Origin: Actinomycetes bacterium
GTDB lineage: Bacteria; Actinomycetota; Acidimicrobiia; Acidimicrobiales; RAAP-2
Direction of reading: 5' to 3'
Length of the DNA: 64,000 nt
NCBI GenBank assembly: GCA_021791895.1
Contig: JAJYVS010000002.1
Coordinates: 62,001-126,000 of the forward strand
The notes under the pieces were generated by a model. That model worked only from the letters and a program-made list of their open reading frames with translations, was not told where the DNA came from and searched no databases. Both the position numbers and the translations under genes were made by a program. This document shows, one piece after another, positions 41,230-55,783 of the stretch. Within the stretch, counting starts at the first letter, position 1. Every line of letters begins with the position of its first letter.

Positions 41230-41984
41230 CGCTCACCTTCTCCTTTCTGAATGACTGCAGGTCCGAGCCTCGAAGCTTGCAAGCCAAAATCAGTCCAACA
41301 CCCATCGGTCCTGGTCACCACCCTATGGCGCTCGAGAGAAGTGATCGGCCGAGAACAAGGCCTTGTCGCGCCAGCCCCACCACCACATTTGGGAAACCCC
41401 AGCGCCAAACAACGCCTTCGGCAGGGCTCACCCTTGTTCTTCGAAATCAGAGGCGGTTTTGGGAGGGGTCGGGGGCTCGGCTGACGGACAAACTCCGACT
41501 AGGCAACGGCAACCCGCCACCGGTATCGTTCCCACAGGGGTTGACCGGGCCCGGCGGCCCGAGACGGGGAGGCACCTCATGTCCAGGGCTTGGCGAACGT
41601 CGGATCGACCGTGTTCCGGTTGCCGTCCTGACCCCCTCGACCTGACCCGGAGCCGCTTCGCCGGTCGCCCCCTGTCACACCCGGGTGGGCAATGACGCGA
41701 CCATTGGCCCAGCCCGAGAAGCGATTCGCGTCGCAAAGCCCGACTTCACCCCGAGGTGGCCAGGCACCGACCTCGCGTCACGGCTACCCTGCCGCATCTA
41801 TGTACGCGGAACCGGGGGGAATCCGGCGGGTCTCAGCCGACCGAGGGCTGCATCGGGCACTGCCCGACCGTCGTTTCGCGGCCCGATCAGTTCAGGCTCT
41901 CGGGGCTACCGACGCCACCGATCTTGTGGTGAGTGAGCTGACCAGGCTCGGGCAGAGCCGTCGCCGTTGGGAGGGTATGAGCCC
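41230..41984 (+). other. 755-bp region without an intact gene
   Basis: Between DUF2630 and the Liv permease. I found no intact gene. At about 41800-41960 a plus-strand frame encodes VSADRGLHRALPDRRFAARS and then DLVVSELTRLGQ. This recalls the first helices of RsbW-type anti-sigma kinases before the conserved N-box, then stops, so it may be a decayed fragment. Confidence 0.4.
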
Positions 41985-44465
41985 ATGCTGAGACGATCTG
42001 GGGAAGGCTCGCCGAGGAGGTGGCCGCTGGCACGCTCCCGGTCGGAGGACTCGAACGGGGTGAGAGAGAGTTCGAAGGAATCTCGGTCGGAGCCGGCCGC
42101 CGGCGCTTCGATCAGCAGTGGTGTTGCGAGCCCAGTTCTCAATGAACAGGGGTTGTTGCGCCCCAGTGGTCTTGGCTCGAAGCGAGCAATCGGCGAGCAG
42201 CTATGGAATCGGCGGCGCCCGTTCCTCTGGGCAGCGGGTGCAGTCATCGTCTGGGTCATCCTGAACAACACCTTGTCCAAGGGTCTTCCCTTGGGCATCG
42301 TGCTCCTCGGCGTCATCTATGGATCGCTCTACGCCCTCATCGCGATCGGCATTGTGCTCGTCTACCGAGGCAATCGGATCATCAACTTCGCTCAAGCCCA
42401 GTTCGGCGTTATCGCCGCCATCGTGGCGATCGAGCTTGTCGTCACGTACCACGTCAACTGGTTCGTGGCGATGCTGGTCGGCATCGCCGGGTCGCTCTTT
42501 CTCGGTGCTTTCGTCCAGACCGTCATCATCCGGCGATTTCGTCGGAGTTCACGACTGATCTTGACGGTCGCCACGATCGGTCTCGCCCAGCTACTTTCCG
42601 GCTTCTCACAGATCATTCCCCTCGAGTTCTGCAACCCCGCACAGAACCAAGCCTGCCTCACCGCCGCGAACACCCAGACCTTCAACACCCCTCTGAACAC
42701 CTCATTCTCCGTTTCGCCGGTCATTTTCAGCGGTAACGACATCGTGGCGGTGGGCGGATGCGCGCTGATCGTGATCGCTCTCGCGCTCTTCCTCCGGTAC
42801 TCGCGCTACGGGATGGCGATCCGGGCGGCTGCGGAAAACGGGGACCGGGCCACGCTTCTCGGGATCCCAGTGCCCCGCCTCGACACCATCGTGTGGTCGC
42901 TCGCGGCGCTGCTCTCAGCGCTCGCCATTCTGCTCCGAGTGCCGGTGCTCGGGTTCAGCGGGTTCCAGACCGTCTCTTCCGGGGGCAACGACATCCTGCT
43001 CCGAACGCTGGCGGCCGCGGTCATCGGCGGCATGGAGAGCCTCCCCATCACCGCGATCGCTGCGGTCGGGATCGGGATCTTCGACTCGGCCGCGACCTGG
43101 ACGTTTGCTAACACCGTGTTCGTCGATGCGACCCTTGTCCTGGTCATCATCGCGGCCCTGGTAGTGCAGCGTCGCCGGTTCGCCCGGATCTCGGAATCCG
43201 ACAACTCCACCTGGCGATCGGTGGCCGAGGTGCGTCCGATCCCGCTCATGATGCGCAAGCTTCCCGAGGTGCGCTGGAGCCTCTGGGCCTTGCGGGCCCT
43301 CGTCCTCGCACTGGGGATCTTGCTTCCCTTCATCGTCGCGACGAGTGACACCTACCTCTTCGCCAACATCGCCATCTACGCCATCGTGGGTCTTTCCCTG
43401 CTCGTCCTCACCGGATGGACAGGCCAGATATCGCTGGGTCAGTTCGGCCTGGCTGGGTTCGGCGGCGCAACGACGGCCATGCTCTTCGGTCAGCACGGCT
43501 GGAACTTCATCCCTGCCACCTTGGTCGGAACTCTGATCGGCGCCCTCGCTGCGCTCATCATCGGCCTGCCGGCCCTTCGCGTCTCGGGTCCGTTCCTCGC
43601 CGTCACCACGCTGGCCTTTGGCATCAGCGTCTCGGCCTACTTCTTGTCGCCGCAGTATTTGCCGTGGTTCGTCACCAGTTCGATCAACCGACCTACGGTC
43701 TTCGGACACAACTGGTTCGGCTCGGACCGAGGCATCTATTACTTGTGCCTCTTCTTTTTTGTGCTGATCCTGCTCGGCGTGCGTTCGCTTCGACAGTCAA
43801 GGATCGGGCGCGCGATGATCGCCACCCGCGACAATGAACCCGCAGCGCGGGCGGCCGCGCTCAACACCACCAGGGTCAAGCTCACCGCCTTCCTGATTTC
43901 CGGAGCTATCGCCGGATTCGCCGGTTCGCTCTTCGTTGCCTACCAGCTGGGAGTGAACTCGGGCTCCTTCTCCGCCGACATCAACATCAACCTGTTCACG
44001 ATGGTGGTGATCGGAGGACTCGGATCTCTTCCGGGGGTGGTTCTCGGCTCCATCTATGTATGGAGCACGTCGTATTTCCTGACCGGTGGCTGGGCTTTCG
44101 TCGCCAGCGGTGGCGGCATCCTGTTCCTCCTGCTGTTTTTGCCCGAGGGCCTGGGCGGGCTCCTGTACATGATCCGGGACCGCTTACTGCGTTACACCGC
44201 TCGTAAACGCGGCCTCGAAGTGCCCGGTCTCGTCGCCCATCAGCGAGGCGAAGAAGGGGCCGATGAAGGTGCTAGCGCACTAATCGCTGAGGTCGCCAGT
44301 GCGGGTGGCGGGCCGGACGCAGCCAGCGCGATCAGGGCTGCCGACCCGCTGCATGGCTCGGGCAGGCACGGAGAAGACAGTGCGGTCCCTGGATCCGCCC
44401 AACCAGTGCATGCGCATGAGGGTGGCGCCGGACGTGACACCGGAGGGGAGTCAACGAACCAATGA
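41985..44465 (+). CDS. Fused LivH-LivM ABC permease
   Basis: An 826-residue membrane protein carrying both permeases of a branched-chain-amino-acid-type importer in one chain. After about 65 polar residues, a LivH-like half follows (YGSLYALIAIGIVLVYRG, then GNRIINFAQAQFGVIAAIVA). From about residue 440 comes a LivM-like half (LLVLTGWTGQISLGQFGLAG, with an EAA-like loop at NEPAARAAALNTTRVK). The last 90 residues are polar, rich in Ala, Gly, Glu and His. ATG 41985 follows GGGAGGG by nine bases. Its stop overlaps the start of the next gene (ATGA). Such importers can carry amino acids, amides, urea or aromatic acids. Confidence 0.85.
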   Translation: MLRRSGEGSPRRWPLARSRSEDSNGVRESSKESRSEPAAGASISSGVASPVLNEQGLLRPSGLGSKRAIGEQLWNRRRPFLWAAGAVIVWVILNNTLSKGLPLGIVLLGVIYGSLYALIAIGIVLVYRGNRIINFAQAQFGVIAAIVAIELVVTYHVNWFVAMLVGIAGSLFLGAFVQTVIIRRFRRSSRLILTVATIGLAQLLSGFSQIIPLEFCNPAQNQACLTAANTQTFNTPLNTSFSVSPVIFSGNDIVAVGGCALIVIALALFLRYSRYGMAIRAAAENGDRATLLGIPVPRLDTIVWSLAALLSALAILLRVPVLGFSGFQTVSSGGNDILLRTLAAAVIGGMESLPITAIAAVGIGIFDSAATWTFANTVFVDATLVLVIIAALVVQRRRFARISESDNSTWRSVAEVRPIPLMMRKLPEVRWSLWALRALVLALGILLPFIVATSDTYLFANIAIYAIVGLSLLVLTGWTGQISLGQFGLAGFGGATTAMLFGQHGWNFIPATLVGTLIGALAALIIGLPALRVSGPFLAVTTLAFGISVSAYFLSPQYLPWFVTSSINRPTVFGHNWFGSDRGIYYLCLFFFVLILLGVRSLRQSRIGRAMIATRDNEPAARAAALNTTRVKLTAFLISGAIAGFAGSLFVAYQLGVNSGSFSADININLFTMVVIGGLGSLPGVVLGSIYVWSTSYFLTGGWAFVASGGGILFLLLFLPEGLGGLLYMIRDRLLRYTARKRGLEVPGLVAHQRGEEGADEGASALIAEVASAGGGPDAASAIRAADPLHGSGRHGEDSAVPGSAQPVHAHEGGAGRDTGGESTNQ

Positions 44466-47434
44466 CCACTTCGACGACGCTCCCCGAGCCCGCCGATCAG
44501 GCGGCGGTCCATGAGGCCCAGCGGCAGTTCAAGAAGCTTGACCCCCGTCGGATCACGGCGCCCCACCCGCTTACGCCCCTGGTGGTGCTCATCGGTCTCG
44601 CAGCGATGGTGCAGTTCGACGGTTCGGCGTTCAACATCTTGGTGCCGAACATCAAGAACACCTACCACCTGAGCCTGGCCGGAGTCTCCTTCATCACCGC
44701 GGTCAGCCTGCCCCTGGGCCTTCTCGCTGACGTCCCCATCGGCTACTACGCCGACCGGGTCAAGCGCATGCGCTTGGAGTGCATCGGCCTGGGGCTGTTC
44801 ATGGGATTCTCAGCACTGACCGGCGTGGCAGGGTCGCTCTTGAGCCTCGGGCTCCTCTACGCGGCCCGCGGGGGAGTCGCCGTCGGCGCCGGATTCACCT
44901 CCACCCAAAACAGCCTTCTCGCTGACTACTACCCGATCGAAATTCGGCCGCGGGTCTATTACGCACAACGTGGCGCGATTGCCGCAGCCCTCGCGCTCGG
45001 ACCAGCGCTCGTTGCCGCCTTCGAGCTCTTCTACTCATGGGAAGTCCCCTTCTTCGTTCTCGCCGCGCCGACGCTCATCTTCATCTTCATCGGGCTTCGG
45101 ACCAAGGAGCCCATCCGTGGACTCCACGAGCGCCGCTACCTCGGAGCTGATGAGGAGACGGCCGGGATCGAGGACGAGGCGCCGACCTTCTCGGAGACCT
45201 TCCGGGTCCTCTTCGCCAACCGCTCAGCCCGCCGGATCTACTACTCCCTGCCGTTCCTGACCGCCTCGGCCATCGGAATCGCCCAATTCCAAAGCCTCTT
45301 CTACCAGCAGATCCTCCACCAGGACGCCTCGAGGCGTGGGCTGATCGTGGCGCTGACCGAGCCGGGCGAGTTCATCGGACTCGCTATCGGACTGATTGTT
45401 GTTCAAAAGCTGATGACCAAGGACCCGGGGCGGACCATGCGCCTCATCGCCCTCACCGGACTCGGATCGGCGGCCTGTCTGTGCGTCTTTGCCCTGGCTC
45501 CGAGCCTGCCCTGGGCGTTCGGGTCACAGTTCATGTACGCACTGATTTCATCGGCATTGACCCCGGGGATTTACGCGGTCATCTCCCTCGCGGTTCCGCC
45601 GAGGATGAGAACCCTCGGGTTCGCGACGAGCTCTCTGTGGTTCATCCTCGGCGTCCCGATCATCCCAGTCGTGGGAGCGATCGGCGATGCTTACGGGCTC
45701 CGGGCCGGGATCTTGATCTTCGTCCCCGTGTACATCGTGGGATCGCTGGTCCTCGCTTCGTCGGGCAATTTCCTCAACAACGACATCGAGAAGGTGCGGG
45801 TCTCCACGCTGGCTCGAGCGGAGGTTCGCAAGGCTCGGGTTGAAGGGCGCGCCAAGATGTTGATGGTCCGCTCACTCGACGCCGGATACGACGGTGTCCA
45901 GGTGCTGTTCGGAATCAACCTCGATGTCGAAGACGGCGAGATGCTGGCAATCCTCGGCACGAATGGGGCCGGTAAGAGCACACTGCTCCGAGCAATTTCG
46001 GGACTGCTGGTTCCCGATGCCGGGGCCGTCCTCTTCGACGGAAGGGATATCACAAGTTCGGACCCCAACAAGATCGCCGAGAGCGGGATCATGCAGGTGC
46101 CCGGAGGTCGAGGCATTTTCCCAGGACTCACGGTCACCGAGAGCCTTCGCGTCTCGGGGTGGATGTACGAAAGCGAGCCCGAATATCTCAAGCAAGCCAC
46201 CGAGCAGGTGCTCGACTACTTCCCGGTCCTTCGGAGCAGGATGAACGTCGCAGCAGGGAGCCTATCGGGTGGCGAACAGCAGATGCTGAGCCTGGCTCAA
46301 GCGTTCATCGCCAAACCGCGGCTGCTGATGATCGACGAGCTGTCTCTCGGTCTCGCCCCGACCGTCGTTGAATCCTTGCTCAACATCGTCAAGGCCATCC
46401 ACGACAACGGCACCACGGTGATCCTGGTCGAGCAATCGGTCAACATCGCGCTTCGGCTCTGTGACCGTGCAGCCTTCGTCGAGAAGGGCGAGGTGGTGTT
46501 CAGCGGACCTACCTCCGAACTTCTCGGCCGAGAGGACATCGTGCGGGCCGTGTTCCTGGAAGGAGCACGCGGCGATCTTCTCGGCGAACAGAAGGAGTCA
46601 TCGGCCAACGGCCAGACGACTGAGCAGCTCGAGGCGGCCTATGACCCCTCGCAACGACAGGTCGTCCTCTCGGCTCGGGGATTGCGCAAGGCTTTCGGCG
46701 GCGTGGTGGCGGTCGACGATGTGGACCTGGATCTCTACGACGGAGAGATCCTCGGCATGATCGGACCGAACGGTGCCGGCAAGACCACTACGTTCGAGCT
46801 GATCTCCGGCCACATCAGCTCGGACGCCGGTCGGGTCACGATGCTCGGCAAGGACGTGAGCAAATGGTCCCCGGACCGCCGCGCCGAAGCTGGCCTTGGT
46901 CGGTCGTTCCAAGCGGCACGGCTGTGGCCTGGACTGACGGTGCAAGAGACGCTCGCCCTCGCCGTAACCAAACGGATCCACACCCCTGGCGTCCTGCCAA
47001 CTCTCTTCTGCGTCCCCGGCGTCAGAGGGGCAGAGCGGAGGGTCGCGAGCGAGGTGGAGGAGGTGCTTGATTGGCTGGGCCTTGGCGATTACCGGGACCT
47101 GCTCACCTCGGACCTCTCTACCGGAACTCGCCGTCTCGTCGAGCTCTCGGTCATCGTGGCAATGCGTCCGAGCATTGTGATGCTTGACGAACCGTCGGCT
47201 GGCATCGCGCAGGCTGAGACCGAGGCGCTGATCCCGGTGTTGCGTCAAACCAAAGAACAGCTTGGCTGCTCCATGCTCCTCATCGAACACGAGATGACGG
47301 TGATGCGCGCGCTGTCGGACCGCGTGGTGGCAATGGACACCGGTTCGGTGGTGGTGGTCGGGACTCCCGAGGAAGTGCTGAGCCATCCGCGGGTCGTCGA
47401 GTCGTATCTCGGTGCCGCCGCCGGAACCTTGTGA
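44462..47434 (+). CDS. MFS transporter-LivF-LivG fusion protein
   Basis: 990 residues in three modules. About 30-440 is a complete MFS transporter (motif LLADVPIGYYADRVKRMR). About 466-705 is a LivF-type ATPase: Walker A GTNGAGKST, signature LSGGEQQ, Walker B LLMIDELSLGLAP. About 734-985 is a LivG-type ATPase: Walker A GPNGAGKTT, unusual signature LSTGTRR, Walker B IVMLDEPSAGIAQ. Both ATPases keep the catalytic Glu and switch His (VEQSV has Gln; LIEHEM has His). The ATPases should drive the LivHM permease just upstream; what the MFS part adds is unknown. It is overlapped by the neighbour genes on both sides, so the set is one operon. Confidence 0.88.
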   Translation: MTTSTTLPEPADQAAVHEAQRQFKKLDPRRITAPHPLTPLVVLIGLAAMVQFDGSAFNILVPNIKNTYHLSLAGVSFITAVSLPLGLLADVPIGYYADRVKRMRLECIGLGLFMGFSALTGVAGSLLSLGLLYAARGGVAVGAGFTSTQNSLLADYYPIEIRPRVYYAQRGAIAAALALGPALVAAFELFYSWEVPFFVLAAPTLIFIFIGLRTKEPIRGLHERRYLGADEETAGIEDEAPTFSETFRVLFANRSARRIYYSLPFLTASAIGIAQFQSLFYQQILHQDASRRGLIVALTEPGEFIGLAIGLIVVQKLMTKDPGRTMRLIALTGLGSAACLCVFALAPSLPWAFGSQFMYALISSALTPGIYAVISLAVPPRMRTLGFATSSLWFILGVPIIPVVGAIGDAYGLRAGILIFVPVYIVGSLVLASSGNFLNNDIEKVRVSTLARAEVRKARVEGRAKMLMVRSLDAGYDGVQVLFGINLDVEDGEMLAILGTNGAGKSTLLRAISGLLVPDAGAVLFDGRDITSSDPNKIAESGIMQVPGGRGIFPGLTVTESLRVSGWMYESEPEYLKQATEQVLDYFPVLRSRMNVAAGSLSGGEQQMLSLAQAFIAKPRLLMIDELSLGLAPTVVESLLNIVKAIHDNGTTVILVEQSVNIALRLCDRAAFVEKGEVVFSGPTSELLGREDIVRAVFLEGARGDLLGEQKESSANGQTTEQLEAAYDPSQRQVVLSARGLRKAFGGVVAVDDVDLDLYDGEILGMIGPNGAGKTTTFELISGHISSDAGRVTMLGKDVSKWSPDRRAEAGLGRSFQAARLWPGLTVQETLALAVTKRIHTPGVLPTLFCVPGVRGAERRVASEVEEVLDWLGLGDYRDLLTSDLSTGTRRLVELSVIVAMRPSIVMLDEPSAGIAQAETEALIPVLRQTKEQLGCSMLLIEHEMTVMRALSDRVVAMDTGSVVVVGTPEEVLSHPRVVESYLGAAAGTL

Positions 47435-47472
47435 GTTCGATCAGCGTCCAAGCGTCTAGAGAGGAAAGCTTC

Positions 47473-48720
47473 GTGAGCAGGAAAGATCGCCGCTATCGCT
47501 GGCGCGCTGTCGTGGCGGTGTGCTCGCTGGTCGCCCTGCTGAGCGCCTGTACCCTTCAGAAGCACTACGGCGTCTCGACTCACACGCTGCCGGTCACCGG
47601 AAACTGCAACACTTCCCGCATCACCGAGGTGGGCGCGGCCCTGCCTCTCTCAGGGCCGGAGGGAATGCTCGGCAATCAGTACCTGACAGGCGTGAAGCTG
47701 GCCGTTTCGCAGACCAACAACACCCACGGGATCCTCACCAAGAACAACTGCCTGGAACTTCTGTACAAGAACACCGATGACAATGTCCACGTCGGTGACC
47801 AGGCGGTTCTGGATCTCGTGAACGGCGAAGTGGTCACGTTCTTGATCGCCCCATTCCAGTCTTCGGTCATTCAATTCACAGGGTCTGACCTGGGGCTTTC
47901 CGGTATCCCGAACACCACCTTCTCATCACTGAACGAGACGCGGGTCCGCAACAACTACCCGATGACCTTCCCAACGCAACCCGACTCGTCCGTCCAAGCC
48001 TCCGTTCTGGCTGCCTACGCCAATAAGCAGCGCTGGACGACGGCTGCTGTGGCCTCGCTCGGTGACCCGGCCGGGAAACAAGCGGCGGAAGAGTTCAAGA
48101 AGGACTTCGCGAAACACGGCGGGAGGGTTGTGGGGTCTGTGACCATCCGTCCCGGTCGCTCGTTCAGCGCTTCAGACCTGTCACCACTCCAGGCGGACAA
48201 GCCGCAAGTCCTCATCGTGATCGGGGACACGCTTCGGGTCGGTCAGCCGCTCATCGCCCGTCAGAAGCTGGGCTGGACGGTCCCCACGTTGGCAACGGCT
48301 TACGCGTCCGATCAGGCGGTGGTTTCGAAGTTAACGCCTGAAGGCAAGAACGGGGTGTTCATCTTGGTGCCGGATCGGGTTGTGCTCCCGGCAAAGGCCA
48401 AGGGTCCTTCGGACCCCTCCATGGTCGGCTTTCTCAAGCGTCTAAAGAGCTTCCTCCATGTCTCGACCCTCTCGGGTTCGATCATTCCCTACGCTGAGTC
48501 TTACGACGGAACCATGATGCTGGCGACTGCCGCCAACAGCATCAACTCCACCGCCCCGGCGAACATTCAGACGTACCTGGAGAACGCCAACTACCAAGGG
48601 CTGTTGGCCGCGTACAACTACACATCGACGCGGCACACCGGTGTTTCAGCCAGCGAGTTGACTCTGGCCGCACTCACGACCCTGTCGGACGGCTTCTTCC
48701 ACTCCCCCCCGAAGAAGTGA
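47473..48720 (+). CDS. Liv-type ABC substrate-binding lipoprotein
   Basis: A 415-residue periplasmic-binding-type protein. The basic N-terminus (RKDRRYRWRAVV) and hydrophobic stretch end in a lipobox LLSAC, so the mature protein is lipid-anchored at Cys. The fold is PBP type 1 (ITEVGAALPLSGPEGMLG, PVLIVIGD-like segments). GTG 47473 follows AGAGAGGAAA and gives a normal signal peptide; GTG 47431 overlaps the previous stop but adds 14 non-signal residues. It is the probable binding protein for the importer encoded just before it. The ligand is unknown. Confidence 0.85.
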   Translation: MSRKDRRYRWRAVVAVCSLVALLSACTLQKHYGVSTHTLPVTGNCNTSRITEVGAALPLSGPEGMLGNQYLTGVKLAVSQTNNTHGILTKNNCLELLYKNTDDNVHVGDQAVLDLVNGEVVTFLIAPFQSSVIQFTGSDLGLSGIPNTTFSSLNETRVRNNYPMTFPTQPDSSVQASVLAAYANKQRWTTAAVASLGDPAGKQAAEEFKKDFAKHGGRVVGSVTIRPGRSFSASDLSPLQADKPQVLIVIGDTLRVGQPLIARQKLGWTVPTLATAYASDQAVVSKLTPEGKNGVFILVPDRVVLPAKAKGPSDPSMVGFLKRLKSFLHVSTLSGSIIPYAESYDGTMMLATAANSINSTAPANIQTYLENANYQGLLAAYNYTSTRHTGVSASELTLAALTTLSDGFFHSPPKK

Positions 48721-48752: not shown

Positions 48753-49026
48753 CACACCGACAACCAGCCTCGGGGTGACACCGGCCAACGCTTTGGACTC
48801 CGTGGGTCACCCGGTCCCCGCTACTCGTGCCACGCCCGACCCATGCGCCCACAGAAGGCGTCGTGACTTTGGGTTGGACGTGACGTGGGACTGATCCTGG
48901 CGCCCGCCACGCTCTGGCCCGACACGGAGGCTCGGGCCAGAGCCGTCGTCGGGAGGATCTTGCCGGTTGGGTAGGCTTGGCCCTTTGCCGAAGGTGGGGC
49001 CGACGACCCCGGACAGGTCAGGCGTG

Positions 49027-50841
49027 ATGCGGAGGGCAGCTGGACAATCGAGGGCACCGGTCCGCGCGCGCGGCAAACGACGGGGCTGGGGCCTCTTGTG
49101 GCAGACCACGCTCCAAGCGAAGTGGGCTCTTTTAGTCGGCATCGTCGCTGGGGTGGTATGGACGGTAGGAAGGGTCGCCATCCCGAATTTCACCCAAAAG
49201 GCGATCGACATCGGGATCATCGAAAGCCGAACCCGGGCGCTCGTTGGCTGGAGTCTGGCCATCTTCTCAGCGGGCATCATTTCGGCCACCTGCTCCGGGT
49301 TCCGCCGCTACATGGCCTTTCGGGTGGCGTATTTGGTCGAAACCGAGCTCCGTGAAGGCATGTTCTCGAACCTCTGCCGGCTGGACTTCCGTTTCCACGA
49401 TCGGTCCCAGACCGGTCAACTGATGGCCAGATCGGCGACCGACCTGCAACAGATCAACGGGTTCGTCACCATGATCCCGATCTCGATCGCAAACGTGCTC
49501 ACGGTCGTGGTCGTGGCCGTCGCGCTACTGGTCATCAACTGGCAGCTGGCTCTGATCGCCTTGGCCTGCCTGCCGTTCGTCAGTGCGGCCGCCAAGCGCT
49601 TTTCGACCCTTCTGCACCCGGTGTCGATGTCGGTGCAGGAGGAGCTCTCAAACCTCTCGGCAGTCGTCGAGGAGTCGGTTACCGGGGTGCGGGCGATCAA
49701 GGGACTAGGCGCGGAGGCGGGTCAGTCGAAGCAGATGGCTCAGCAAGCGGGCACCGTCTACGAGCTGATCATGCGTCTTGCGCGCATACGGGGCATGTTC
49801 ACGCCGTTTCTGGACGTGCTCCCGGTGTTCGGGCTGGCCGGAGTGCTTTGGTACGGGGGCCTGGAGGTGCTTCACGGCCATCTATCCGTGGGAGATCTTG
49901 TCGAGTTCAACCTGTACCTGGCGATGCTCGTGGGCCCGTTGCAGATGCTCGGGCAAATCATCGCCCAAGGACAACGGGCTCTTGCCTCCTCGGAGCGAGT
50001 CGCGGAGATCCTGGACGAAACCCCAGCAGTTGCGCAGCCGGCTCACCCTGCTCATATGCCCCCCGGAAGGGGTGCGATCGAGTTCGACGACATCGTCTTC
50101 GCGTACGGGGAGAAGACACGTCCGGTTCTAGATCGCTTCGATCTCACGATTGCCGGCGGAGAGTCCGTCGCCTTGGTGGGTTCCACGGGATCCGGAAAGA
50201 CCACCGTCGCCCGACTTGTCCCCCGCTTCTACGATCCCGACGTCGGAACCGTGCGCATCGACGGGGTAGACGTGCGGACCGTCGACCTGGTCGAACTCAG
50301 GCGCTCGATCGCTGTGGTCTTCGAAGACACGTTCCTCTTTACCGACTCGGTCGGAGACAACATTGCCTATGGCCAGCCCGAGGCTTCGGTTGAGGATGTC
50401 CTTAGGGCGGCACGTCTAGCCGGAGCCGATGAGTTCGTCAACGAACTTCCGGAGGGCTACGACACCATACTCGGCGAGCGGGGATTCTCGCTCTCTGGAG
50501 GGCAGCGGCAACGCATCGCCCTCGCTCGAGCCATCCTTGCCGATCCCAGAGTGCTCATCCTCGACGACGCGACTTCGTCGGTCGACGCGAGCAAAGAGCA
50601 CGAGATCAGAGACGCGATGGCCACCGTCATGGAAGGGCGCACCACGATCGTGATTTCGCACCGGCCGGTTACGATCGCCCTGGCAAACCGGGTTGTTCTC
50701 CTCGATCAGGGTCGAGTGGTGGCCGAGGGAACCCACGAGAGTCTGCTCGAGAGTTCGGCACGATACCGAGAGGTCCTGGCCCAAGGGGCGGCCATCGACG
50801 CTGCTCGATCTGAGCTGCGCGGCGAGGAGGTCGGTTCCTGA
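49027..50841 (+). CDS. ABC exporter subunit, degenerate ATP site
   Basis: A 604-residue half-transporter: six-helix ABC exporter membrane domain then ATPase. Walker A GSTGSGKTT and signature LSGGQRQ are intact, but the Walker B end reads LILDDATSSVD, with Asp where the catalytic Glu should be. The switch histidine is present (VISHRP). This is the pattern of the non-hydrolysing half of heterodimeric exporters such as TM287/288. ATG 49027 is preferred (GTG 49024 is adjacent). It overlaps the partner gene by one base. Cargo unknown, perhaps drugs or peptides. Confidence 0.87.
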   Translation: MRRAAGQSRAPVRARGKRRGWGLLWQTTLQAKWALLVGIVAGVVWTVGRVAIPNFTQKAIDIGIIESRTRALVGWSLAIFSAGIISATCSGFRRYMAFRVAYLVETELREGMFSNLCRLDFRFHDRSQTGQLMARSATDLQQINGFVTMIPISIANVLTVVVVAVALLVINWQLALIALACLPFVSAAAKRFSTLLHPVSMSVQEELSNLSAVVEESVTGVRAIKGLGAEAGQSKQMAQQAGTVYELIMRLARIRGMFTPFLDVLPVFGLAGVLWYGGLEVLHGHLSVGDLVEFNLYLAMLVGPLQMLGQIIAQGQRALASSERVAEILDETPAVAQPAHPAHMPPGRGAIEFDDIVFAYGEKTRPVLDRFDLTIAGGESVALVGSTGSGKTTVARLVPRFYDPDVGTVRIDGVDVRTVDLVELRRSIAVVFEDTFLFTDSVGDNIAYGQPEASVEDVLRAARLAGADEFVNELPEGYDTILGERGFSLSGGQRQRIALARAILADPRVLILDDATSSVDASKEHEIRDAMATVMEGRTTIVISHRPVTIALANRVVLLDQGRVVAEGTHESLLESSARYREVLAQGAAIDAARSELRGEEVGS

Positions 50842-52673
50842 TGGGATGGTGGGGAGAATCAGGGCTCGACGAGGAGGATCGCCTCGACCGCGAGGAAGCC
50901 AAGCACGTCATCAAGCGAACGGTCCGAATGTTGCGTCCGTATCGGAGCGGTCTGCTGGCGACCCTGGTCGTTTTGATCCTCTACACCGCTGCCATCGAAG
51001 CCGGGCCGCTCATCGTCGGCTATGCAATCGACCACGGGATCACTGGCCATCGGAGCGCCACTGTGATCGAGGCGTGCGGGATCCTGTACCTGGTCTCTGC
51101 TCTCGTCATGGCGATCACCGAGCGCGCCCAGATCGTGATGGTGAACCGGGTGGGCGAATCCTTCTTGCGGAGTCTGCGGACGAGGGTCTTCCGCCACATT
51201 CTCTCACTGTCGATGCGGTTCTTCGATCGTGAGCAGACAGGACGTCTCGTCACGAGGATGACGTCCGACATCGATGCCTTGGAAATGCTGATTCAGCAGG
51301 GTCTTCTGGTGTTCGTCACCAGCGGACTGCTGTTCGTCACGGTCGTCATTTTGATGTTGGTTCTCTCTCCGATCCTCTTCGGCCTCTGTGCGATCGTGCT
51401 TCCTCCGGTGCTCATCTCGACCCGGAAGTTCCGTCGAGAGTCCAACGTCGCGTACTTGGCCGTACGCGATTCGATCAGTCAAACGCTGTCCACGCTCCAA
51501 GAATCGCTCGCCGGTGTTCGAGTCGTGCAGGCCTTCGGCCGTGAACGGCACCAATACGAGCGGTTCCGTCGACACAATCGAGCCCAGCTCGATGCCAATG
51601 TGAATGCCGTTCGGATCTCGGCTTTGTACTTCCCGGCTATTGAGTTCACAACGAGCGTGGCGACAGCGATCGTCGTCGGGGTCGGCGGTGTCCTGGTGGC
51701 CACACATCTCACCCAAATCGGCATCGTGACCTCGTTTGTGTTGTACCTCGGCTTGCTGATCAACCCGATTCAGCAGGTGAGCCAGCTGTTCAACCTGATT
51801 CAGCAGTCGGGGGCGGCGCTGAACAAGCTGTACGGCCTGCTAGACGTGGCTCCGGAAGTCACCGAACCGCTCGGTGCTGTCGACCTCCCAGAACGAGGGG
51901 CAATCGAGATCCGAGATGTTGCCTTTTCCTACCGGCCGGGAGAGCTCGATAACGTCCTAAGCGGCGTCAACCTCACCATCACTCCTGGTGAACGCCTTGC
52001 TCTCGTTGGGCCGACCGGCGCCGGAAAGTCGACGTTGGCAAAACTCATCGCCCGGTTCTACGACCCCACCTCCGGGGTTGTCCGATACGGGGGGACCGAT
52101 CTGCGAAATGCCTCGATCTCCTCGCTTCGTCGCAGGATCGCCGTCATTCCCCAGGAGGGGTTCCTGTTCCACGGGACGATTTTCGAGAACGTGCGCTTGG
52201 GCAAGCTCGACGCAACCGAGGACGAGGTGAGGCGGGCATTGCGGATCATCGGCGCCGAGGCACGATTCGACGCGCTCCCAAACGGCCTGCAAACCGAGGT
52301 TCGTGAGCGCGGATCACGACTTTCCGCAGGCGAGCGGCAACTCGTTTCGCTCGCCCGGGCTGCCTTGGCCAACCCGGACGTCCTCATCCTCGACGAAGCC
52401 ACGTCGAACCTCGACCCTGGAACGGAGTCCGATGTCGAGGGGGCGATGACGGCTCTCATGAAGGGGCGGACCGTCATCGTGATCGCGCACCGGCTTTCGA
52501 CCGCTGAGCGCTCTGACAAGGTCGCGGTCGTCGACGCCGGTCGGCTGGTCGAAGCCGGCACCCACAACGAACTTCTGGGCGTCGGAGGTCGATATGCCGA
52601 GCTCTTCGCTTCCTGGCTCGGTAACTCTGGCAGTCATGACGCCCGGGCCGTGCCGACAGCAGGGGACGGATAG
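50841..52673 (+). CDS. ABC exporter subunit, catalytic half
   Basis: A 610-residue half-transporter that pairs with the preceding protein. Walker A GPTGAGKST, signature LSAGERQ (note Ala for Gly), Walker B LILDEATSNLD with the catalytic Glu, and His in VIAHRLS. So it holds the complete Walker B, and its partner's LSGGQ completes the working site. The ATG overlaps the previous stop (TGATG), ensuring equal production. The C-terminus ends with a short polar tail. Confidence 0.88.
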   Translation: MGWWGESGLDEEDRLDREEAKHVIKRTVRMLRPYRSGLLATLVVLILYTAAIEAGPLIVGYAIDHGITGHRSATVIEACGILYLVSALVMAITERAQIVMVNRVGESFLRSLRTRVFRHILSLSMRFFDREQTGRLVTRMTSDIDALEMLIQQGLLVFVTSGLLFVTVVILMLVLSPILFGLCAIVLPPVLISTRKFRRESNVAYLAVRDSISQTLSTLQESLAGVRVVQAFGRERHQYERFRRHNRAQLDANVNAVRISALYFPAIEFTTSVATAIVVGVGGVLVATHLTQIGIVTSFVLYLGLLINPIQQVSQLFNLIQQSGAALNKLYGLLDVAPEVTEPLGAVDLPERGAIEIRDVAFSYRPGELDNVLSGVNLTITPGERLALVGPTGAGKSTLAKLIARFYDPTSGVVRYGGTDLRNASISSLRRRIAVIPQEGFLFHGTIFENVRLGKLDATEDEVRRALRIIGAEARFDALPNGLQTEVRERGSRLSAGERQLVSLARAALANPDVLILDEATSNLDPGTESDVEGAMTALMKGRTVIVIAHRLSTAERSDKVAVVDAGRLVEAGTHNELLGVGGRYAELFASWLGNSGSHDARAVPTAGDG

Positions 52674-53517: not shown

Positions 53518-55239
53518 CTATCCGTTCGACCCGGCGGCGGTGAAGAGGGCCGGCAACTTCTTCGGCCAGTTGTTCAAAGAGAACCGCTTGCCGTTGAACA
53601 GGGGGATGTAGGTGCCCTTCTTCCCATTGATCGGAGAGACGGCATTCGCGTCCCAGTACACGAACCGGTCGTTCGTAACGGCCGTATGGTCACCGGTACC
53701 GGGCTTTCCACTTGGCCCCGAGTTCCAGGACCACGCCCCGTAGACATAGTTCGGAGCGCCAAGTGTGGGTAAGGCGTGCACGCCCCTCGCCATGTTCTGA
53801 GGAGTCAGATCGGGCCCGGCCGCCTGCAGTGCGTCAAAGATCCAGACCAAGTCGCTGTAGTCGCCGTCGGTCCCCGGTGGAATGGCGTGCCCGGTCAACT
53901 TCTGGTAGAGCTGACCGGCAGGGCTCTTCGGGCCGAAGAACGCGGTCTCCGGAGAAGCCTCGCTCATCCCAAACAGGGATCCCTGGACTACGGACTGGTC
54001 GTAAGTCTGGGCGACGGTGTCGGTGTCATCGAGGGCGACGCCGTTCAGCAACCACTCGGGCTTGTAATTCTGCGCGGCAGCCGCCTTCGTCAGCAGGCTG
54101 AGCGAGAAGGAGTCACAGGCCGTGATGATCGTGGTGACACCCTCTGCCTTGAACGACACGATGGCTTGCTGAGCCGAGGTCTGGAAGGTGGAGATGTCCA
54201 AGCCGTACGTGAAGACGTGGATCGACGATCGCGCTACGTGGTAGTGCTGGACCATGTAGTTGATGGACTCCCGTACGCACAACATGTAGGTGGGTAGGTT
54301 GGGGACGTAGATCCCGAAGACGCGCTTCTTGGTGTGCATCGAGGGGTCACCGGCGTAGATCGCGTCCTTGTTCGCCAGGTACTGGCCGTACACCTGAGCT
54401 GACATCACGGCGATCCGCTGGCACTCCTGCGGAAGGCCCCAAACGTACGGGTTGTACTGCTGGTACCAAGCTTCGTCGAAATACGCGCCACCGTCGAACT
54501 CCACCAGTCCGTCCTTGGCTGCGCAGACCGAGAAGGGGCCGGTCCCGCCACCACCCGATCCGTTCGGGTCGAGGGTGAAGTTCACCTCACCGAATGCGTG
54601 GAGCGTATGGGCGATGGTGTCGGCGTCCGCGCATGCCTGTGACTGATTGCCATTCAGCAACTCGGCCGTGTCGTTACTCACCGAGTGCTCCTCGACGAGG
54701 TTCACGTGACGTCCGTAGAGGTCATAGACCTTGTTGAAGTAGTTGAGAAAGACCTGTGCGACCTGGTCGGTCACGGACGGAATGGCGATGCCTTCAGACT
54801 TCGCCACGGCCACGACCTCTTGGGAGTTGGCTGTCTGGGGGAAGGTTCTCATCGCAAGCGTGATCGTGTTCTTCGTGACCCCGTCGTACGTGGCCCCGCC
54901 ATTGTTGCCACTCCACTTGGCGATACAGGGGTCAGCGTAAGGCGACGAGAATTGGGGCTTTCCACTCGAGCAGGACAAGCCGGCGACCGTCTTCCCGCTG
55001 CCCACCTTAGTGTTGCCGGATGCCGGGTACTTCCATGGATACGGACCTTCGCCCTTCGGCCCGCTCGTCGCCAGTTTCGGCCCCGCCGACGCTGCTCCAC
55101 TTGCCCCGGTTGTCATCGGGACAACCGCCATGGCGAGCGACAAAACTCCAATCACTCCCATCAAGCGTGCCAGGCGACTCGTGCCTCTTCGGCCGCGTCG
55201 CCCACGAAGACGCTCGTGTATCACGGCATTCACTTGCAT
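53518..55239 (-). CDS. Large secreted Liv-type binding protein, paralogue A
   Basis: A 573-residue PBP type 1 protein, much longer than usual Liv-binding proteins (about 380-420). The signal peptide is after a basic leader (LARLMGVIGVLSLAMAVVP), with no lipobox. Mature sequence starts with GEGPYPWKYPASG, a cysteine-containing segment (DPCIAKWSGNNGGATYDGV) and TITLAMRTFPQTANSQE. ATG 55239 is chosen for the signal peptide. It is head to head with a close paralogue at 55784. It probably binds a small molecule outside the cell for an importer such as the one at 41985-47434, but this is inference. Confidence 0.82.
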   Translation of the reverse strand: MQVNAVIHERLRGRRGRRGTSRLARLMGVIGVLSLAMAVVPMTTGASGAASAGPKLATSGPKGEGPYPWKYPASGNTKVGSGKTVAGLSCSSGKPQFSSPYADPCIAKWSGNNGGATYDGVTKNTITLAMRTFPQTANSQEVVAVAKSEGIAIPSVTDQVAQVFLNYFNKVYDLYGRHVNLVEEHSVSNDTAELLNGNQSQACADADTIAHTLHAFGEVNFTLDPNGSGGGGTGPFSVCAAKDGLVEFDGGAYFDEAWYQQYNPYVWGLPQECQRIAVMSAQVYGQYLANKDAIYAGDPSMHTKKRVFGIYVPNLPTYMLCVRESINYMVQHYHVARSSIHVFTYGLDISTFQTSAQQAIVSFKAEGVTTIITACDSFSLSLLTKAAAAQNYKPEWLLNGVALDDTDTVAQTYDQSVVQGSLFGMSEASPETAFFGPKSPAGQLYQKLTGHAIPPGTDGDYSDLVWIFDALQAAGPDLTPQNMARGVHALPTLGAPNYVYGAWSWNSGPSGKPGTGDHTAVTNDRFVYWDANAVSPINGKKGTYIPLFNGKRFSLNNWPKKLPALFTAAGSNG

Positions 55240-55783
55240 TCCGCCCCCTTTTGCAGCAAGGCACTTCCCCGCTTGCGCAAGTCCCCCGAATGTCTCCCTA
55301 GGCGGAGGACGTCCGGACATTGTTCTTGGTGACGCCGACCAAAGCAAGCAAGTGCTCTCAAGCGAATCCTATCGAGCTGGCTGGTCCCTGGCGGATCGTC
55401 GAGGAACTGATCGACCGGCTCCAAGGTGTCGCTAAGCCCGGACGGCAAGGCGGTGCGGCCAGCAGCACGCGACCAAGAAGCCCTACGGTGAAGCCCTGAT
55501 TCTCGCCATCCGGCCGCGAGACCGCCAAGGGCGGCCCCGTCTCGGCGTCGGCAGAAAGCGGATTTCGGTCTGGAGTTTTCGCCGCCGTTCCGCGGCGTCG
55601 GACGGACTTAGAGGCGCACCCACGGTGGCTCGACTAGCAGAGCCAGTGACCGGATCTACCCATGCGAACAGGGAAGATAATCAACTCTTGGGAAAAAGTT
55701 GCTCTCGGATGACAAACGTGTTACGACGTGTGGGAACGATTCGACGATGTCGGACGGAGCACAACCGAGGGGAGGGCGGCGAC
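55240..55783. other. Divergent promoter region between paralogues
   Basis: 544 bp between the two head-to-head binding-protein genes. For the plus gene a possible promoter is TTGCTC (55699-55704) with TACGAC 17 bp later (55722-55727). A short inverted repeat (AACT/AGTT) lies near 55683-55700. No other gene or clear operator was seen. Confidence 0.4.

Follow-up and report, generated by a model that had tools for sequence, protein, structure and literature searches.

Analysis of the window, the whole 64,000-nucleotide stretch of DNA studied here, revealed an operon in which an MFS domain and both ATPases of a Liv-type ABC importer are encoded as a single 990-residue protein. This fusion is a real inherited design and not a sequencing error, and the best reading of the system is a Liv-type ABC importer to which an accessory transporter is tethered, an ancestral part that has been lost repeatedly.

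The operon comprises three overlapping genes, all on the + strand. The first (41967-44465) encodes a fused LivH-LivM permease of 832 aa, opening at TTG 41967 with an in-frame ATG at 41985 as an alternative, putative start; Pfam placed PF02653 (BPD_transp_2) on two stretches of this frame (E 5.7e-56), corresponding to a LivH/UrtB-like domain (residues 112-400) and a LivM/UrtC-like domain (residues 465-732). The second gene (44462-47434) encodes the 990-aa MFS-LivF-LivG fusion, for which Pfam reported MFS_1, two ABC_tran domains and BCA_ABC_TP_C. Its spinster/DgoT-like MFS domain (44558-45781, residues 33-440), which retains D53, D98/R102, R136 and D155, is followed by a helical stalk running from TM12 to LivF (45782-45859, residues 441-466), the LivF-type ATPase (45860-46576, residues 467-705), a variable, unconserved LivF-LivG linker (46577-46660, residues 706-733) and the LivG-type ATPase with its BCA_ABC_TP_C tail (46661-47422, residues 734-987). 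The third gene (47431-48720) encodes a 429-aa substrate-binding lipoprotein with a Peripla_BP_6 domain and the lipobox LSAC. Neighboring genes overlap by 4 bp, at ATGA 44462-44465 and GTGA 47431-47434.

Structural features expected of a Liv/HAAT importer were found: LivH- and LivM-type permease domains, a type-I periplasmic binding protein within the operon, the BCA_ABC_TP_C tail, and intact Walker A (499 and 768), signature (601 LSGG and 885 LSTG) and Walker B (621 and 905) motifs in the two ATPases, the LivG signature being LSTG in place of LSGG. The fusion reached none of the cut-offs of the NCBIfam LivF and LivG models, a match to UrtE passed only through a whole-protein score that sums the two ATPase domains, and the NCBIfam names disagreed with each other. 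Rfam gave no match at the locus. Taken together, the open reading frames, Pfam domains and motifs bear out the first-pass annotation, which had described a 990-residue MFS, LivF-type and LivG-type frame behind a LivH-LivM fusion, with joints overlapping by a few bases, and an importer thereby reduced to two large proteins plus a binding protein. The frames lie where it had put them, but its finer positions needed correction: the permease frame opens at the TTG, its 41985 being the in-frame ATG, and the ATPases start at about 45860 (LivF) and 46661 (LivG). Two ABC exporter half-transporters lie directly 3' of the operon (48967-52673, + strand), and relatives of these exporters lie beside L068 and L073, the closest homologues, as well.

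When 84,980 species genomes were scanned with patterns built solely on the MFS domain, 162 relatives emerged, from which 79 loci were kept. MFS-LivF-LivG was encoded at 73 of the 79, a fused LivH-LivM at 74 and a nearby binding protein at 69. Four of the six exceptions (L096, L114, L128 and L143) run off short contigs, and in a fifth (L113) LivG is a separate overlapping gene; the sixth (L095), the only apparent stand-alone MFS among the 79, abuts runs of N and for that reason was not counted as one. Two true stand-alone MFS relatives, L195 and L196, had no Liv genes nearby. A full-length search with a cut-off of E <= 1e-100 gave matches in 29 of 61 relatives; among 296 genomes drawn from the phylum it gave matches in 16. 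As read from the table, a frame spanning MFS and LivF was present in about 20 of those 29 and about 14 of those 16, the rest being ATPase-only matches. The genome that contains the window carries two further copies, on contigs C3 (54% identical) and C46 (41% identical). Titled records were nearly all Acidimicrobiia or other Actinomycetota, including the isolate Ilumatobacter nonamiensis (L082), and the fusion was also encoded on two single-contig assemblies (G042 and G038) and a 2.96-Mb contig (L115). Four records (L110, L128, L125 and L091) bear the titles Bifidobacterium breve, Euryarchaeota or Acidobacteria, yet the actinobacterial family is present in them; these are probably mislabelled or contaminated bins, and in the tree L125 is almost identical to the actinobacterial record L109. 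The recurrence of the fusion at 73 of 79 loci excludes both chance and assembly error as its source. Neither result that the first-pass annotation had named as refuting was seen: homologues were nearly always fused, not an MFS that is always a separate gene, and many independent assemblies agreed at the MFS-LivF joint, with no frameshift there.

The MFS-Liv fusion belongs to an old family that occurs in more than one layout. A second layout (type II), present in several other Actinomycetota, Embleya sp. NBC_00888 among them, pairs MFS-LivF with LivH-LivM-LivG. Like the window's layout (type I), it contains all five domains and joins the MFS to the N-terminus of LivF; unlike the window's, it carries LivG on the permease chain, and its MFS is more diverged, with motifs partly lost. 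All type I and most type II MFS domains grouped together in the MFS tree. The type II protein L197 fell instead with the stand-alone MFS proteins, where branches are long, a placement that hints at a second, independent fusion. The same genome as the window also encodes another Liv system (L006, 7744-11357), with LivH-LivM-LivG in one 960-aa frame and a separate LivF.

Some genomes that carry the fusion also encode related systems without it, made of LivHM, LivF-LivG and a large binding protein of the family described below. Their ATPases are about 50% identical to those of the fusion, but both the MFS and the stalk are absent, which indicates that the MFS is dispensable for the importer core. 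In L205, L210, L211, L220 and L221, a single LivH-LivM-LivF-LivG chain of about 1,250-1,360 aa lacks an MFS. The MFS-less systems were nested among the MFS-bearing ones in a tree of LivF plus LivG, on which parsimony required 9 changes compared with about 21 for shuffled labels. A single origin of the MFS would imply about nine losses. Because the tree is rooted through two long outgroup branches and is weak at several inner forks, the MFS may instead have been gained repeatedly.

Profile comparison placed the MFS domain closest to spinster and DgoT-type carriers. A single-protein search of the PDB gave no match; a profile search succeeded, the best matches being HnSpns (6e8j, E 2.7e-35), spinster homolog 1 (9boi) and DgoT (1e-23). 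By alignment to HnSpns, with counts over 62 proteins, the window's D53 corresponds to Asp41 (Asp or Glu in 56 of the 62), R136 to Arg122 (55), D98 to Asp87 (59), R102 to Arg91 (all 62) and D155 to Asp142 (60). The domain has the MFS fold, motif A with its charge relay and the TM1 Asp/TM4 Arg pair of this group; D98 and R102 belong to motif A, D155 is the charge-relay Asp, and D53 and R136 form the pair. Not among the retained residues is the TM4 Glu, to which a study of HnSpns residue roles (PMC9440201) assigns the part of proton master switch: at the position of Glu129 the window has A143, and 38 of the 62 proteins have Lys or Arg, making classical proton coupling doubtful.

Sequence divergence points to constraint on this domain in the window's lineage. 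Mean identity was 0.41 for the MFS versus 0.61 and 0.56 for the ATPases, so that the MFS diverges faster, yet in pairs close to the window its dN/dS was 0.04-0.15, a rough estimate with dS near saturation and similar to that of LivG. These ratios show that the MFS is under purifying selection. A different pattern was found in three members of one genus (L022, L023 and L024), natural candidates for a dead MFS, which have lost D53, R136, D98 and D155 with the fusion intact; there the dN/dS of the MFS was 0.42 compared with 0.26 for LivF and 0.17 for LivG, all below 1. Several type II copies have also lost some of these key residues. That constraint relaxes where the transport residues are lost fits a transport role for the MFS in the other lineages.

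The joint between MFS and LivF differs sharply from that between the two ATPases. In a predicted structure of the 990-aa protein alone (mean pLDDT 88, pTM 0.70), TM12 is prolonged as one continuous helix (residues 413-460) that ends six residues before LivF. The stalk, equivalent to residues 441-466, was exactly 26 residues long in 55 of 62 proteins, versus a range of 17 to 84 for the LivF-LivG linker, and its mean conservation was 0.54 versus 0.18. Around that linker, pLDDT fell below 50 at residues 699-727. We read the modeled stalk as a rigid element of fixed geometry.

The large binding protein shared with the MFS-less systems belongs to a family of about 600 aa that adjoins 66 of the 79 loci. 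Members tested had no match in Pfam or NCBIfam. The window copy (53518-55347, - strand; 609 aa) matched nothing in Pfam, NCBIfam, PHROGs or a sequence search of the PDB; its structural model (pLDDT 78) matched Leu/Ile/Val- and aromatic-acid-binding proteins (4kv7, E 2.1e-13), and it is predicted to be a type-I Liv-like binding protein. It lies about 5 kb from the operon on the opposite strand, so we infer its link to this operon, which itself uses the ordinary 429-aa lipoprotein instead. The family would represent unannotated large Liv-type binding proteins common in Acidimicrobiia. Genes for acyl-CoA ligase, PhyH, enoyl-CoA hydratase and acyl-CoA dehydrogenase also occur near the loci, but they recur in small subsets only and are too weak a basis for naming the substrate.

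We propose that the MFS is a working carrier in an accessory role, physically linked to an otherwise normal Liv-type importer, a reading to which we assign about an even chance. The lipid- or membrane-anchored binding protein would pass its ligand to LivH-LivM, ATP hydrolysis by LivF and LivG would power import, and the stalk would hold one spinster/DgoT-type carrier next to each importer, in a 1:1 ratio. The MFS could then move a solute that is related to the substrate or runs counter to it, such as a by-product or the substrate in a membrane-soluble form. An amphipathic organic acid or an amino-acid-like compound is the probable substrate, although this suggestion is weakly supported. We favour this tethered carrier over a dead anchor and over ATP-driven coupling on the strength of the recurrence of the fusion, the invariable attachment of the MFS to LivF, the constancy of the stalk, the transport residues, the low dN/dS and the MFS-less relatives. 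Against it count the replaced proton switch, the faster divergence of the MFS and the loss of key residues in L022-L024 and several type II copies.

Those same observations suit a second explanation, in which the MFS no longer transports but serves as a membrane anchor or as a regulatory or assembly domain that keeps LivF, together with LivG, beside the permease. Replacement of the TM4 switch by Ala, Lys or Arg and rapid divergence are consistent with such a role, as is the persistence of domain and stalk in L022-L024 and some type II proteins after the catalytic residues have gone; in L022-L024 the MFS dN/dS is relaxed yet stays below 1. However, normal Liv ATPases do without an anchor, and close relatives with intact genes presumably function without the MFS. 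A mere anchor would also not require motif A, D53 and R136, which are kept in about nine-tenths of type I copies, and in the window's lineage the MFS dN/dS is as low as that of LivG. The first-pass annotation had offered three roles for the MFS: a second substrate route, the return of a product, or a membrane anchor for the ATPases. Of these, the conserved residues and low dN/dS make a pure anchor less likely in the window's lineage, although in some sister lineages those residues are gone and in others the MFS is missing altogether. We rate this explanation as less likely than not.

A more radical possibility is that ATP binding and hydrolysis by LivF gate or drive the MFS through the rigid stalk, in which case the protein would combine primary with secondary transport. 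The continuous helix predicted from TM12 to just before LivF, the near-constant length of the stalk beside a variable LivF-LivG linker, the position of the MFS on LivF in both layouts and the absence of the usual proton switch all speak for this possibility. Near-constant length, however, proves constant geometry only, and the interdomain arrangement was modeled with moderate confidence for the fusion without its permease, leaving this coupling improbable in our estimation. Finally, an assembly chimera, or a missed stop or frameshift at the joint, is exceedingly improbable: the window's genus is represented only by metagenome-derived contigs and two relatives (L217 and L219) have frameshifts in or near the joint, but the identical frame occurs at the 73 independent loci, the isolate and long contigs included, dN/dS is low across the joint, and an assembly artefact was ruled out because many independent assemblies share the fusion. 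In L217 and L219, both metagenome-assembled genomes, the broken MFS-LivF frame could reflect either error or gene decay.

ABC and MFS carriers are regarded as mechanistically separate. With a helix of nearly fixed length joining the two, gating or driving of an MFS fold by an ATPase becomes directly testable, and if the stalk does couple them, the complex would be a true ABC/MFS hybrid containing an MFS carrier without the usual proton switch. Proteins with an intact MFS, a degenerate MFS or no MFS, sometimes within one genus, provide a natural comparison set.

The first-pass annotation had singled out this operon as its best candidate for an undescribed system, and we likewise found no description of such an MFS-Liv fusion in the open-access literature; this novelty is provisional, as most subscription journals lay outside the scope of the search. 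Among known systems, the importer core resembles the Liv/HAAT importers (LivHMGF-J/K and UrtABCDE; TCDB 3.A.1.4) in its two BPD_transp_2 domains, its LivF- and LivG-type ATPases, the BCA_ABC_TP_C tail and the type-I binding protein in the operon, but here two polypeptides carry all the permease and ATPase subunits, with an MFS added N-terminal to LivF. The MFS domain, in turn, resembles HnSpns (6e8j) and DgoT in profile kinship and in its equivalents of Asp41, Arg122, motif A and Asp142, but differs from them in lacking an equivalent of Glu129, in its fusion to an ABC ATPase and in its place within an importer operon.
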